This document shows, in pieces, positions 55,653 through 61,910 of a stretch of 64,000 nt of DNA (positions are counted from its first letter, which is position 1; each line of letters opens with the position of its first letter). Made by a program: the position numbers and the translations under genes. Source of the stretch: Natronorubrum halophilum (GTDB taxonomy: Archaea; Halobacteriota; Halobacteria; Halobacteriales; Natrialbaceae); the NCBI RefSeq assembly GCF_003670115.1, contig NZ_QQTY01000002.1, positions 1,116,001 to 1,180,000 on the forward strand. The letters are read 5' to 3'. Below the pieces are notes generated by a model. That model was not told the DNA's origin, ran no database searches, and saw nothing but the letters and a program-made list of their open reading frames with translations.

Positions 55653-56096
55653 GTGGATACTCGACTCATCGTTACGGCTCCGGTGATGGCGTACGTCGCC
55701 GTTCTCGGACTGTTTTCGCTCGCCCAGTCGACGGTCGACGTCGCGTTTACGGACGGGCAACCGGCGTTTATGATCGTCATCGGACTTCTCGGTCCGGTAA
55801 CCGCGCTCGGATTGATCTGGCTCAAGAACTACGCCTACGGTGCACCGCTGCTCGTCTTGACGGTGTTTTCGAACGCGTGGTTCGTGAGCTACTTCTTTTT
55901 CGTCCACGACAACTCGGCGAACGTGTTCGCCGCGTCGGGCGACGGTGCGGCGGCCTATATGATGTCGGCGGTCGGGCTCGTCGCCACCTCGCTCATCCTC
56001 GGCGGCGTCGGCTGCTGGCTGTGGTACCGAGAGAGCGCCCAGTTTCGGACCGCGGTCGATCGGTTCGTCCGTCCGTCGACGGGACCCGAGCACTAA
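55653..56096 (+). CDS. four-span membrane protein, uncharacterised
   Basis: The 147-aa protein has a GTG start, four hydrophobic helices (about 7-25, 38-56, 64-84, 100-125) and a short charged C-terminus. No motif is recognised. An AT-rich stretch (55590-55630) with ATAACGGTTAAG provides the promoter. It stands between mptE and the convergent cetZ. Confidence 0.7.
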   Translation: MDTRLIVTAPVMAYVAVLGLFSLAQSTVDVAFTDGQPAFMIVIGLLGPVTALGLIWLKNYAYGAPLLVLTVFSNAWFVSYFFFVHDNSANVFAASGDGAAAYMMSAVGLVATSLILGGVGCWLWYRESAQFRTAVDRFVRPSTGPEH

Positions 56097-56150: not shown

Positions 56151-57323
56151 TCAAAACAGCGCGTCGAGTTCCCCGCCCGTATCGACCAGGGATGCGAACT
56201 CGTCCTGGGCGCGCGCGTTGACCACCTCTGTCGTCTCCTGGGCCTCGATCGCGACCTGCTGAAGTTGATCGATTCTCGAGACGTCCGTCACGCCCGACAA
56301 GAGCACGATCGCGCCGACCTCGTCGCTATCGGAGATCGGGTAATCGCCGCCGCGGATCTCCATACTCCCCGTCTCGTCCTCGAGCCACTGACGGCCGCGC
56401 TCGATTCCCTTACGGCTCAACTCGGTGGACGGACCGGTGGCCACGACGAGGCCACGGTCGGTACTGCCGACGTTACACTGGAGGGTGAGCCGACCAAGCG
56501 TCGCCTTGCGCACGAGACTGCTCAGGCGGGTAGTCGCGCTTCCCTCGTCGAAACCGCCGGCATCGTTGCCGCCGGTCAATGACGAGAGGAGCCCGTCGCC
56601 GCTCGTGTCGACGGTCTCGCTCGCGTAGCCGATCGTCGAAACGCCGCCGCCCGAGAGCGTGTTGATGATCTCGGAGGAGTCGACGACACTTTCAGCGACG
56701 TCGTCGCCGTAGCCGACCTCTCCGGCGGCGAACAGCAGCCCGAACCGCTCGACGATTTCGCGGTTGATCCGATCGTAGCCGCCCTGGACGGACTCGCCGG
56801 CGCTGCGCCAGACGTCGTTATCGAAGACCAGCAGGTTGTCGGCCTCGCGGACGAACGTCTGGAACGAACGGGCCGCATTGAGCGTGTAGATCCCGCCTTC
56901 GTCCGTCGCCGGAAGGATACCGAGCCCGTAGACCGGCTGGGTGTAGAGCTGCTTGAGATGCTTTGCGAGGACGGGTGCACCCCCGGAGCCGGTGCCGCCG
57001 CCCATGCCGGCGACGACGAGGAACGCATCGAGTTCGTGGGTCGGAACTCGATCGATCGCGTGTTGGACCTCGTCGATGTCCGCCTCGGCGATCTCGGCTC
57101 CGAGTTCGTTATCGCCGCCGACGCCGTGGCCGTTTACGCGCGACTGCCCGATGAGGATTCGATTCGTCCGGGGGACGTACTCGAGTCCCTGCAAGTCCGC
57201 CGTTGCCGTGTTGACCGCGATTCCGTCTTCGACGAATTCGCGATCAATGGCGTCGTCGTACGCCAGAAATCGATCGACTACTTTTCCGCCAGCCTGACCA
57301 ATGCCGATGAGTGCGAGTTTCAT
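56151..57323 (-). CDS. cetZ: tubulin-superfamily cytoskeletal protein CetZ
   Basis: The 390-aa tubulin/FtsZ-superfamily GTPase is of the archaeal CetZ group. It begins MKLALIGIGQAGGKVVDRF, a CetZ hallmark, and has the GTP signature GMGGGTGSGG (106-115). The T7 loop region NREIVERFGLLFAAGEVG is also seen. CetZ1 of Haloferax is required for rod-shape development and motility; which paralogue this is cannot be told. A second cytoskeletal gene (actin type) lies 45 kb away. Confidence 0.93.
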   Translation of the reverse strand: MKLALIGIGQAGGKVVDRFLAYDDAIDREFVEDGIAVNTATADLQGLEYVPRTNRILIGQSRVNGHGVGGDNELGAEIAEADIDEVQHAIDRVPTHELDAFLVVAGMGGGTGSGGAPVLAKHLKQLYTQPVYGLGILPATDEGGIYTLNAARSFQTFVREADNLLVFDNDVWRSAGESVQGGYDRINREIVERFGLLFAAGEVGYGDDVAESVVDSSEIINTLSGGGVSTIGYASETVDTSGDGLLSSLTGGNDAGGFDEGSATTRLSSLVRKATLGRLTLQCNVGSTDRGLVVATGPSTELSRKGIERGRQWLEDETGSMEIRGGDYPISDSDEVGAIVLLSGVTDVSRIDQLQQVAIEAQETTEVVNARAQDEFASLVDTGGELDALF

Positions 57324-57638: not shown

Positions 57639-59387
57639 ATGGAAGACGTCGCTCCCTCGACGACCAGACGGGGGTTGCTCGCTGGGATCGGTGTTGGAAC
57701 CAGCGCCCTCGCCGGGTGCGCGGAGCGACTCTGGTCGCAGGCAGAAACCAGCGACCCGGAGCAGGTTTCGCTGACAATCAAGACTGTTCCGGCGGACGAC
57801 GACCGCCTCGCCGCGACGATCGCGAGCCAGCTCCGTGAGAACTACGTTGCGGCCGGCATCGACGCAACGCACGAACCGGTCTCCATGGCGGAACTGTATC
57901 GCGATATTCTGCTCGAGGGTAACTACGACGTATTCGTCGCCAGACACGACGGATTCGACGAGTACGACGCCCTCCGCGGGCTGTTGCACTCACAGTTCGT
58001 CAGCGAACAGGGGTGGCAAAACCCCTTCCAGTTCTCCGATATCACGGTCGACGACTACCTCGAGGAACAGCGGATGGCCGAGGGAGACGACCGTCTCGAC
58101 GTGCTCATCGATCTGATCGACCACCTGCTGGAGACAACACCGTACACGGTTGTCGCCCATCCCTACCCGCTCAGCGGGCTGGACAACGAGTTGAGCGTCC
58201 CGAACCCGCCTCGGCGTCCACACCAGTACCTGGATATCCTCACCCACCCGAACAACGAGTCGCGAAACGGTCCACTCGAAGTCGGCGTCTTCGGTGAAGG
58301 TCTCACCGAGCGGCTGAACCCGCTCACCGTCGACCAGAACCGGATCGCCGGTCTACTGGGCCTCCTGTACGATCCACTGGTCCGACGGATCGACGAGGAG
58401 TACGTTCCGTGGCTGGCCGAAGACGTTGAGTGGACCGAACAGGGCCAGCTCCGAGCCCGCGTTACCCTTCGGGAGGGACTCGAGTGGCACGACGGGACGG
58501 ATCTCGATGCCGACGACGTGGCGTTTACGCTCGACTTTCTCGAGGACACCTCGATGGGTTCGATCGACAGTGGCGCCCCCGCACCGCGATATCGGGGGCG
58601 ACAGACGTTGGTCGACAGGACGAACGTGATCAATTCGCGGACGATATCCCTGTTCTTTACCCAGACGAACCAGTCGGCCGCTCGTCGGGCGCTGACGATC
58701 CCGCTGCTCCCGACGCATATCTGGGCCGACCGGGCGGAAGTCGTGACCGAGCGCCAGACGCAAGCGATTATGGACGACAACTCCGAGCCGATCGGTTCGG
58801 GACTGTTCGCCTTCGGAGAGTCCACGACCGACGCCGAGATCCAACTCGAACCGTTCGATGCACACGTCCTCCGCGAAGCGACGGACCGTCCGTCGGTGCT
58901 CGAGAACTCCTCCCGGTTCGATGGAATCACCTTCCAGGTCGATCCGAACGCTGGCTCGATGGTCGACGCGCTTGTCAACGGTGAGGTCGACGTGACGGCG
59001 AGCGAACTGCCACCGGAAAGCGCCGGGGAAATTCGAAAGGCGGAGAACACCGCAACCGTGACGGGGACGTCCGACGCGTTCTACATGATCGGCTACAGCA
59101 GCCATCACCCCCAACTCGGCAACCCTCACTTTCGGCGGATCTGTTCGCGGCTAATCGACCGCGAGCACGCCGTGACCGAGTTTTTCGACGGCCTCGCCGA
59201 ACCGGCTACCTCCGCCAATGCGCTCGTCGGCATCCGCGACGACGCCTGGGAGTACGACCACGATTTCGGCACCGCTTCGGATCCTCTCGAGTTTCCCGGT
59301 ACCGACGGAGAGATCAACGCGTCTCGGGTCCAGTCTCTCTTCTCGGCTATTCACTACCGCTACGAAGACGATATCCTGCTCGAGTGA
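57639..59387 (+). CDS. peptide-type ABC substrate-binding lipoprotein with circularly permuted layout
   Basis: The 582-aa protein has a Tat motif (TTRRGLLAGIG) and lipobox ALAGC (Cys27). The mature protein opens with VSLTIKTVPADDDRLAATIA and AAGIDATHEPVSMAELYRDI, and TVVAHPYPLSGLDNELSV follows near 170-187. In SBP_bac_5 proteins these normally form the C-terminal part. Only after ~210 does the canonical N-terminal part begin (LNPLTVDQN..., LYDPLVRRIDEEYVPWLAE, LREGLEWHDGTDLDADDVAF). The chain ends VQSLFSAIHYRYEDDILLE, where the usual protein would continue into LTIKTV. No permease genes are adjacent. Confidence 0.85.
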   Translation: MEDVAPSTTRRGLLAGIGVGTSALAGCAERLWSQAETSDPEQVSLTIKTVPADDDRLAATIASQLRENYVAAGIDATHEPVSMAELYRDILLEGNYDVFVARHDGFDEYDALRGLLHSQFVSEQGWQNPFQFSDITVDDYLEEQRMAEGDDRLDVLIDLIDHLLETTPYTVVAHPYPLSGLDNELSVPNPPRRPHQYLDILTHPNNESRNGPLEVGVFGEGLTERLNPLTVDQNRIAGLLGLLYDPLVRRIDEEYVPWLAEDVEWTEQGQLRARVTLREGLEWHDGTDLDADDVAFTLDFLEDTSMGSIDSGAPAPRYRGRQTLVDRTNVINSRTISLFFTQTNQSAARRALTIPLLPTHIWADRAEVVTERQTQAIMDDNSEPIGSGLFAFGESTTDAEIQLEPFDAHVLREATDRPSVLENSSRFDGITFQVDPNAGSMVDALVNGEVDVTASELPPESAGEIRKAENTATVTGTSDAFYMIGYSSHHPQLGNPHFRRICSRLIDREHAVTEFFDGLAEPATSANALVGIRDDAWEYDHDFGTASDPLEFPGTDGEINASRVQSLFSAIHYRYEDDILLE

Positions 59388-59506: not shown

Positions 59507-60379
59507 ATGGCACTCGCCGAAGTACTGCTCGAGCTTGCCCTCATCGTGACGACGATGCTCGTTACGGCAACGCTCATTATCGTCGGACCGCGGAACGTGG
59601 CCGACGCACTACGGGATTTTCGCTGGCGTCTCGAGGCCTGCGTACTCCCGTTTTCCGCGCTCGTGGTCGTGCTTCTGTTGCGGTGGTCGACACAGGATGT
59701 CGTTCATCGACTCGAGCGGCAAGTGCTCCGGAACAACATCACGGCGGTCCTGTTCGAACTCGATCAGCTACTCTTCGGGACGAACCCCGTCACCGTTCTC
59801 CAGTCGTTTCAAACCGATCTCGTGACGTCGTTTTTCGTCTTCGTCTACATGTACGGCTACGCGTTTTTGCTGATCTTCCCGTTTATCGCGTACTTCGCGC
59901 TCGACGAGATGGACGACCTGTCGAACCTCGTGATCGCCTTTACCGCGAACTACGGAATCGGGCTGCTCTGTTACACCTTCTTTCTCGCGTTCGGTCCGCG
60001 AAACTACGATCCGCTGCTGTTCGAGGGGCTGTTGTACGAGGCGTTTCCCCAGTCCCGGATGCTGACGAACGAGATCAACCAGAGCACGAACGTCTTTCCG
60101 TCACTGCACACCTCGCTGTCGATGACCGTCTTCTTCCTCTCGTGGGTGACCCGAGAGAAGTATCCGATCTGGCTGTTCGTCTCCGGCTTCTTCGCGATCA
60201 GCATCTCGCTTTCGACGATGTACCTGGGTATCCACTGGTTCTCCGACGTCGTCGCCGGAACGTTGCTCGCACTCGTCAGCGTCTACATCGGCGTCAACTA
60301 CACGGTCGAGGGGTTTCTCGCGTGGATTCGCCGGTTCTTCGAGACGCAGTCCGGACCGCCGAACGCCGACGGCGAGTAG
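59507..60379 (+). CDS. PAP2-superfamily membrane phosphatase/phosphotransferase
   Basis: The 290-aa protein has about six helices and PAP2 motifs: VFPSLHTSLSMTVFFLSW (SxxH, motif 2) and MYLGIHWFSDVVAGTLL (motif 3, HxxxD). A long N-terminal region has three helices. Some relatives act as inositol phosphotransferases or lipid phosphatases; the substrate here is unknown. ATG at 59507 is preferred; one at 59471 is in frame but lies ahead of the likely transcription start. It follows the binding-protein gene by 119 bases on the same strand. Confidence 0.87.
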   Translation: MALAEVLLELALIVTTMLVTATLIIVGPRNVADALRDFRWRLEACVLPFSALVVVLLLRWSTQDVVHRLERQVLRNNITAVLFELDQLLFGTNPVTVLQSFQTDLVTSFFVFVYMYGYAFLLIFPFIAYFALDEMDDLSNLVIAFTANYGIGLLCYTFFLAFGPRNYDPLLFEGLLYEAFPQSRMLTNEINQSTNVFPSLHTSLSMTVFFLSWVTREKYPIWLFVSGFFAISISLSTMYLGIHWFSDVVAGTLLALVSVYIGVNYTVEGFLAWIRRFFETQSGPPNADGE

Positions 60380-60497: not shown

Positions 60498-61910
60498 ATG
60501 AACCTCCACTGGCACCGCCGCGATCTCCGCGGAACCGACAACCTCGGCCTCGCACACGCAGCCACAGCGGCCGACGGCCGGGTTGTTCCCGTGTTCGTCC
60601 TGGATCCGACCGTCCTCGAGCACGCGTCACCAGTTCGGGTCGCCTGCCTGCTCGAGGCCCTCGACGGCCTTCGTGGCTGGTATCGCGAGCGGGAGAGCGA
60701 CCTACTCGTCGTCCGTGGCGAAGCCAGCGAGGTGCTCTCGCGGCTCGCTCGCGAACACGACGCCGAAGCCGTCGTCTGGGCGACCGATTACAGCGCGCTC
60801 GCTCGGGAGCGCGATCTGGCGGTAACGGCAGCACTCGAGGACGACGACGTCCGGTGTGAGACCGTCCACGACGCGATCCACCACGAACCGGGGTCGATAA
60901 CACCGAACGAGGGCGACCACTACTCGGTGTTTTCGTACTTCTGGAAAAAGTGGCGCGACCGAGAGAAACGCGAACCGGTCGATCCACCGGCGGCGAACGA
61001 CCTCGCCGACCTCACGGGTGAGCCGCTGCCGTCGCTCGCCGAACTCGGGTTCGAAGAGCCAGTTCCGACGCCGCCACGGGTCACCCAGCCGGCGGCCCGT
61101 GAGCGACTTACGGCCTTTTGCTCTGGACCGATCTATCGGTACGCCGAAACCCGTGACCGTCCGGCTCTCGACGGCACCTCCCGGCTTTCGGTCCATCTCA
61201 AGTGGGGGACCGTCGGCATTCGAGCGGTGTACGAAGCCACGGAACGGGCGGCAAACCGCGGGGAGACCGACGAAGCACGCGAGAGCGTCAGGGCGTTCCA
61301 GCGGCAACTCGCCTGGCGCGAGTTCTACGCGTACGTCCTCGCGTTTAACCCCGAAACAGTCGCTGAGAACTTCAACGACTACGAGAACGCGATACCGTGG
61401 CGAAACGATACCGACGAAATCGAGGCCTGGAAAGCCGGGAAAACCGGGTATCCGATCGTCGATGCGGGGATGCGTCAGTTGCGGGCGACGGGATGGATGC
61501 ACAACCGCGTTCGGATGCTCGTCGCGTCGTTTCTGACGAAGGATCTATTGACCGACTGGCGAGTCGGCTACGACTGGTTCCGCGCGAACCTCGCCGACCA
61601 CGAGACGGCGAACGACGTCGGTGGGTGGCAGTGGGCCGGCTCGACCGGGACCGACGCCCAGCCCTATTTTCGGGTGTTCAATCCGATGAAACAGGGACGC
61701 GAGTACGATCCGGACGCCGAGTACATCCGCGAACACGTCCCCGAACTCGCCGACGCGACGGCTACGGAGATTCACGGGTGGCACGACCTCGAGTCGACGG
61801 AGCGGGATCGAATCGCCGCCGCGTATCCGGCACCGATCGTCGATCACGCGGATCGCAGAGAGCGCGCAATCGCAGCGTTCGAACGGGCACGCGGGGAGCC
61901 CTCGAAGTAA
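60498..61910 (+). CDS. phr: deoxyribodipyrimidine photolyase (class I CPD type)
   Basis: The 470-aa light-driven repair enzyme has an N-terminal photolyase domain (MNLHWHRRDLRGTDNLGLAHA, antenna-binding) and a C-terminal FAD domain with RLSVHLKWGTVGIR, FQRQLAWREFYAYVL, GYPIVDAGMRQLRATGWMHNRVRM and WQWAGSTGTDAQPYFRVFNP. Trp residues for electron transfer are within these. It reverses UV pyrimidine dimers. Important for a sun-exposed halophile. Confidence 0.96.
   Translation: MNLHWHRRDLRGTDNLGLAHAATAADGRVVPVFVLDPTVLEHASPVRVACLLEALDGLRGWYRERESDLLVVRGEASEVLSRLAREHDAEAVVWATDYSALARERDLAVTAALEDDDVRCETVHDAIHHEPGSITPNEGDHYSVFSYFWKKWRDREKREPVDPPAANDLADLTGEPLPSLAELGFEEPVPTPPRVTQPAARERLTAFCSGPIYRYAETRDRPALDGTSRLSVHLKWGTVGIRAVYEATERAANRGETDEARESVRAFQRQLAWREFYAYVLAFNPETVAENFNDYENAIPWRNDTDEIEAWKAGKTGYPIVDAGMRQLRATGWMHNRVRMLVASFLTKDLLTDWRVGYDWFRANLADHETANDVGGWQWAGSTGTDAQPYFRVFNPMKQGREYDPDAEYIREHVPELADATATEIHGWHDLESTERDRIAAAYPAPIVDHADRRERAIAAFERARGEPSK

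Follow-up and report, generated by a model that had tools for sequence, protein, structure and literature searches.

A natural circular permutation in a haloarchaeal family-5 solute-binding lipoprotein encoded next to a PAP2 membrane protein

The window analyzed here (the whole 64,000-nucleotide stretch from Natronorubrum halophilum) carries, on the same strand, a gene for a solute-binding protein (SBP) lipoprotein of the peptide-binding family 5 and a gene for a PAP2_3 membrane protein, which starts 119 bp past the SBP stop codon (Table 1). A CetZ tubulin-like gene (56151-57323) lies upstream in divergent orientation and a photolyase gene (60498-61910) lies downstream; both are kept as neighbors mainly within Natrialbaceae, a matter of synteny in that family. 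Between the CetZ gene and an MptE-like gene, positions 55653-56096 encode a 147-aa protein with apparent membrane segments and no Pfam match. An Rfam scan returned no RNA, and a scan for sigma-70-type signals, whose range excludes archaeal promoters, detected neither a promoter nor a terminator.

Table 1. Features of the SBP-PAP2 locus, in window coordinates.
Feature	Position	Strand	Details or basis
Family-5 SBP lipoprotein, very probably circularly permuted	57639..59387	+	582 aa, ATG start
Tat signal and lipobox (RRGLLAG...SALAGC, predicted lipidated Cys27)	57639..57719	+	sequence and conservation
Permuted block, residues 30-193, matching columns 316-474 of the 487-column canonical profile (its C-terminal third)	57726..58217	+	profile alignments and controls
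E-x-G-W-Q-N-P-F signature, residues 123-130, within the permuted block	58005..58028	+	conservation in PAP2-linked clade
Linker, residues 194-206, between former C- and N-termini; modeled helix 194-202	58218..58256	+	profile alignment, model
Residues 207-573, matching canonical columns 8-325 (the N-terminal two thirds of the profile); ends at the helix preceding the LTL strand	58257..59357	+	profile alignment, model residues 205-582 on AppA 17-355
PAP2_3 membrane protein; 290 aa counted from the conserved ATG, the reading frame being open as far back as TTG 59459	59507..60379	+	PF14378
PAP2 motif 1 Arg (GPRN)	59999..60001	+	invariant in 79 sequences
PAP2 motif 2 His (FPSLH)	60107..60109	+	invariant in 79 sequences
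PAP2 motif 3 His...Asp (HWxxD)	60233..60247	+	invariant in 79 sequences

The signal sequence of the lipoprotein (RRGLLAGIGVGTSALAGC) holds a twin arginine (R10 R11) and a lipobox ending in A25, G26 and C27, with R10, R11, G26 and C27 invariant in an alignment of 75 homologues. The Tat-lipobox route is the usual one among haloarchaeal lipoproteins, in which the twin arginine and the cysteine lie 12-21 residues apart (PMC2945643); the spacing of about 16 found here falls inside that range. Behind the signal the sequence blocks follow in the order that the initial annotation had described, with LTIKTV/IASQL/AGIDATHEP and HPYPL ahead of LNPL/YDPLVRR/WHDG and the chain ending at VQSLFSAIHYRYEDDILLE. 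That annotation had read the order as a circular permutation with its cut in a single loop, and the profile comparisons described below bear it out; they place the cut in the loop that links the LLxxAGY helix to the LTL strand, at about canonical columns 311-326.

Searches with the single protein sequence recover mainly the rear part of the chain. Pfam PF00496 aligns residues 254-527 with profile positions 1-247 of 368 (126.8 bits against a cut-off of 32.4), residues 1-209 submitted alone give a weak match to positions 269-348 (E 0.033), and the best matches among solved structures (TM1223, AppA, DppA and others) run from about residue 203 onwards, against the N-terminal two thirds of those proteins. 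Profile comparison was carried out with a family alignment of 75 sequences (the window protein and 74 from 80 named haloarchaeal SBP loci) and a canonical profile of 27 haloarchaeal family-5 SBPs collected via PF00496. HHalign placed the front part of the chain (the N-block, aligned over residues 31-193) on the canonical C-terminal columns with a probability of 98.4 and an E-value of 4e-15, and the remainder (the C-block) on the columns given for it in Table 1 with an E-value of 2.5e-41. Both parts of a family-5 domain are therefore present in other than the canonical N-to-C order, and rotating the profile at residue 205/206 restored that order in one alignment spanning columns 10-474 of 487, with a score of 415 vs. 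324 unrotated. None of thirty column shuffles of the N-block rose above a score of 19.5 or reached an E-value under 0.08, and reversing the block gave a score of 14.9.

Independently, a search of the PDB with an HMM built on just the N-block picks out the C-terminal third of family-5 chains, including 5u4o (366-503 of 521, E 1.8e-6), 6i3g (351-468), AppA (370-499 of 520), DppA and others. With HMMER, rotation of the single SBP sequence brought no gain, the best single-domain score staying at 107, an outcome probably due to gaps and the linker region breaking up the alignment; the same rotation raised the score of a paralogue (L002) by 41 bits and those of transporter-linked relatives by up to 87 bits, and shuffled-block controls remained flat. 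Other haloarchaeal ORFs show the reversed PF00496 order within a single reading frame, with profile positions 287-366 (above the cut-off) ahead of 2-288 in genome G005 (C39) and the same order in G006 (above the cut-off) and G003 (just below it).

The Pfam result for the single sequence, which detects only profile positions 1-247, would suit a different arrangement, namely an unrelated extra domain at residues 30-205 in front of a truncated SBP, with no permutation at all. Such a domain has almost no probability, given that the N-block falls on canonical C-terminal columns at an E-value that no shuffled block approaches, that it matches the C-terminal third of solved SBPs, and that relatives show the reversed order above the Pfam cut-off within one ORF. 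We therefore regard it as nearly certain, judging from sequence profiles, that the chain is naturally circularly permuted, with the C-terminal third moved to the front. An added domain in front of a complete SBP was also considered and ruled out, as the chain stops where canonical column 325 ends. Examination of the chain for the findings that would have spoken against the permutation gave the opposite, in that no stretch able to act as another C-terminal part follows residue 573 and the N-block is homologous to the C-terminal part of the family.

The AlphaFold2 model built from the 75-sequence alignment (pLDDT 88.8, pTM 0.86) has the two-lobed fold of this family. VIA superimposed residues 205-582 of the model on AppA 17-355 (Z 21.8, 332 residues, rmsd 2.8), leaving over the last ~165 residues of AppA, to which the N-block, of similar length, is matched by profile. 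Foldseek and VIA align residues in chain order, so that the OppA/DppA/AppA fold is assigned by structure to residues 205-582 and by profile homology to residues 30-204, whose place in space we infer in the same way. At the level of sequence profiles, and with support from the model, the permutation lies in the C-terminal lobe, with the old termini joined by a short linker.

The same cut occurs outside the branch to which the window protein belongs. A three-profile test found the C-lobe ahead of the N-lobe in ten transporter-linked proteins, of which L004 belongs to the genome of the window. Permuted SBPs of this kind (L038, L152-L160) sit in complete SBP-DppB-DppC-DppD-DppF operons, one of them in the window's genome, and their profile aligns with that of the window family collinearly over the full length (E 2e-63), with the cut shared at canonical columns 311-326. 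Unlike the window SBP, they lack both the E-x-GWQNPF signature and a PAP2 neighbor. Annotation tools read these proteins as truncated SBP_bac_5. Since relatives with this cut occur in ordinary Opp/Dpp operons, the permutation does not single out the branch that lacks a transporter, and it may well be older than that branch. When a tree is built on the shared region, the PAP2-linked proteins come out as a single clade (support 100), separate from the transporter-linked ones. All permuted sequences but two lie on one side of a branch with support 97, no root being inferred; in the unconstrained tree two transporter-linked sequences (from G001 and G028) group with canonical ones, and a single origin for all permuted sequences is not rejected (p-AU 0.39). 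The best explanation is that the permutation was inherited from a wider group of haloarchaeal SBPs, most of them transporter-linked.

A second, different circular cut was also seen in haloarchaeal family-5 SBPs (L007 349-2166 on the minus strand, corresponding to G000:C2:314-316 kb, and L136 1393-3225, likewise on the minus strand). There the chain ends in the middle of the C-terminal lobe (positions 2-77 of 166 in the canonical C-terminal profile, canC) and a later piece (107-137) stands at the N-terminus. The L007 protein is probably a transporter component, because its locus also encodes, close by, a permease of the DppB type together with an ABC ATPase.

Searches for orthologues showed that the permuted order is kept at full length across Halobacteria. 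Members of the family (E <= 1e-40) were confined to the order of the window's organism, where they occurred in 32 of the 295 genomes sampled from the phylum. A PAP2 gene lies directly downstream on the same strand in 78 of the 80 named loci; one of the two remaining loci runs off its contig (L069) and the other is a true exception (L079). Counted over 41 genomes, 64/67 SBPs of the clade have PAP2 downstream and 64/72 PAP2 genes have the SBP upstream. SBP copies that lack an adjoining PAP2 are L079, one each in G016 and G019, and one in G038 at a contig end. The species with the exceptional copy (L079 7962-9761), Halorussus amylolyticus, also has a paired one (L080). By gene order, the SBP is the first cistron of a conserved haloarchaeal SBP-PAP2 pair, which Haloarcula species carry as well (L116, L120). 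Spacing between the two genes is 0-290 bp in Natrialbaceae, where each may have its own promoter, and typically -4 (a start/stop overlap) in Halorubrum and its relatives. Tandem SBP-PAP2-SBP-PAP2 arrays also occur, one of them in the window's genome (L037 9302-14673; G000:C2:467-473 kb), where the pair was duplicated as a unit.

Apart from PAP2, no neighbor is conserved across families; one candidate upstream ORF is present in nine loci. The initial annotation had pointed to the lack of a permease beside the SBP, and this holds more widely, for across the 80 loci the unit includes no gene for an Opp/Dpp permease or ATPase, and the window SBP has PAP2 downstream instead. The operon of permease and ATPase that marks an Opp/Dpp system is absent here. 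In L096 alone, a weak match to a permease occurs upstream in divergent orientation; ATPase matches, likewise weak, are found only at greater distance. Eight PAP2 relatives have no adjoining SBP. Solo copies such as G000:C4:549209-550006 (L161) and L162-L164 share no common neighbor that we could find, and possibly represent an ancestral or separately working enzyme.

The product of the downstream gene belongs to the PAP2 superfamily, with a match to PF14378 (E 5.3e-17, 62.7 bits against a cut-off of 27) and the expected Arg, PSxH and HxxxD residues (Arg181, His217, His259 and Asp263, numbered from TTG 59459), which are kept in 79/79 PAP2 sequences. Its model (pLDDT 93.6) has Aur1 as the best fold match (9vj4, Z 20.6 over 220 residues; 9ivc, the Aur1-Kei1 complex, Z 19.4), followed by LpxE (Z 16.8); LpxE and YodM, which also match, are phosphatases. 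A transferase and a phosphatase are both possible because PgpB (3e-6) is a better match than Aur1 (0.007) by sequence profile. The loops between TM1-2 and TM5-6 are rich in Lys and Arg and those between TM2-3 and TM6-7 poor in them, and under the positive-inside rule the active site appears to face outside, on the side of the lipoprotein.

Within the SBP, E123, G125, W126, Q127, N128, P129 and F130 are invariant in the PAP2-linked clade (75 sequences aligned); the E-x-GWQNPF stretch is a candidate site for contact with a ligand or partner. Where some canonical members have a GWxxDxxDP motif, the PAP2-linked SBP has RHPGxxDPD, so that the peptide specificity of the old family cannot be assumed. 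Taken together, the clade-specific signature and the changed motif argue for an altered ligand or partner surface.

The best explanation of these results, to which we give a probability of roughly 0.6, is that the permuted SBP is a non-ABC surface binding subunit that regulates or supplies a PAP2 lipid enzyme. The family history of the protein would also suit an ordinary transport SBP that feeds an ABC permease encoded elsewhere, with PAP2 as a co-regulated bystander, since the closest homologues beyond its own clade are genuine transporter SBPs that carry the same permutation and are encoded in complete operons, and the genome has about 20 family-5 SBPs and several Opp/Dpp operons. We consider this unlikely, however, given the fully supported separation of the PAP2-linked clade from the transporter-linked proteins, a pairing with PAP2 in 64/67 copies from many families with no permease, and tandem duplications that carry both genes together. 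Still less probable is the sensor or receptor proposed in the initial annotation, acting with no enzymatic partner and functionally unrelated to PAP2; a predicted membrane-anchored ligand-binding fold and a locus free of Opp/Dpp permeases are compatible with it, whereas the absence of a conserved signaling gene alongside, the standing of PAP2 as the only neighbor conserved across families, and the frequent overlap of the two reading frames all speak against it. An accessory subunit of PAP2 fits the gene pairing better than a sensor or receptor does.

A further reading keeps the partnership and drops the ligand. The lipoprotein would have lost ligand binding and would do no more than stabilize PAP2 as its scaffold or folding partner, in a role comparable to that of a non-catalytic partner such as Kei1 beside Aur1; the tight pairing, the solution of Aur1, the nearest PAP2 fold, with its partner Kei1 (9ivc), and the possibility that ExGWQNPF, the most constrained stretch, is a protein interface are all in its favor. 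It is nevertheless about as improbable as the transport reading, if not slightly more so, in view of a bilobed fold that is complete in the model and of many scattered conserved positions, more than a pure scaffold requires.

A functional partnership between the SBP and PAP2 is probable, and the specific mechanism of a ligand-binding subunit is put forward more tentatively, at a little under even odds. Under the binding-subunit reading the lipoprotein would take up a ligand on the outside of the membrane, most likely a small molecule such as a polar head group, and would present it to the PAP2_3/Aur1-like enzyme or control the enzyme through its open/closed change; the enzyme would in turn act on a membrane lipid or polyprenol, from which it would split off or transfer a group linked through phosphate. 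The permutation would set the old C-terminal lobe beside the lipid anchor. Physical contact between the two proteins, the ligand and the reaction are what we infer from these data. Extended to the haloarchaea as a whole, the proposal describes a two-component surface system in which a permuted former transport SBP may have been taken over by an Aur1-like PAP2 lipid enzyme as its ligand-binding subunit; membrane-lipid or polyprenol chemistry would then be controlled or fed by a soluble ligand from outside the cell, a picture we hold with the same reserve as the mechanism itself.

Comparison with known systems shows both precedent and difference. The family-5 (cluster C) SBPs OppA, DppA, AppA and NikA (PF00496) are homologous to the window SBP over its whole length and share the two-lobed fold seen in its model; the window SBP differs from them in its permuted chain, in a lipid anchor placed before the former C-terminal lobe, and in having a PAP2 partner in its unit instead of a cognate permease. 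TpMglB-2 (Tp0684) of Treponema pallidum, classed as "Type Ic / cluster Bc," is also a natural circularly permuted, membrane-tethered SBP, and it still binds its ligand and closes (PMC4990184). It differs in being a type I SBP that binds glucose and is associated with ABC transport, with another cut point and a smaller moved piece (PMC4990184); the window SBP, a PF00496/cluster C protein with a different cut, falls outside Type Ic, whose members are type I/cluster B SBPs with permuted N-lobe strands. The mycobacterial lipoprotein LpqW is reported to steer the synthesis of PIM/lipomannan, a membrane lipoglycan, rather than transport, and to act opposite the mannosyltransferase PimE (PMC3229680). 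The N-block profile matches the C-terminal region of LpqW (PDB 2grv, 405-467 of 621), and LpqW is therefore not permuted; the enzyme reported for it, PimE, also differs from the PAP2 protein paired with the window SBP. Aur1 (inositol phosphorylceramide synthase) and the PAP2 lipid phosphatases LpxE and PgpB share fold and catalytic motifs with the partner PAP2, whereas sequence similarity is weak, and no SBP partner for any of them was found in the literature examined. That literature, mostly outside subscription journals, contained neither a permuted family-5 SBP nor an SBP-PAP2 pair.

Natural circular permutations of binding proteins are seldom reported, and we found none for the peptide-binding family 5. 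Permuted members of this family are common in one archaeal class and their transporter-linked relatives persist, so that the origin and the effect of the permutation are open to study. The standard label "ABC transporter substrate-binding protein" is misleading for the PAP2-linked SBP genes, whose near-constant pairing with PAP2 points to an undescribed haloarchaeal surface system. If the pairing is functional, the idea drawn from LpqW, that of an SBP-like lipoprotein acting on lipid chemistry, would reach the archaea.
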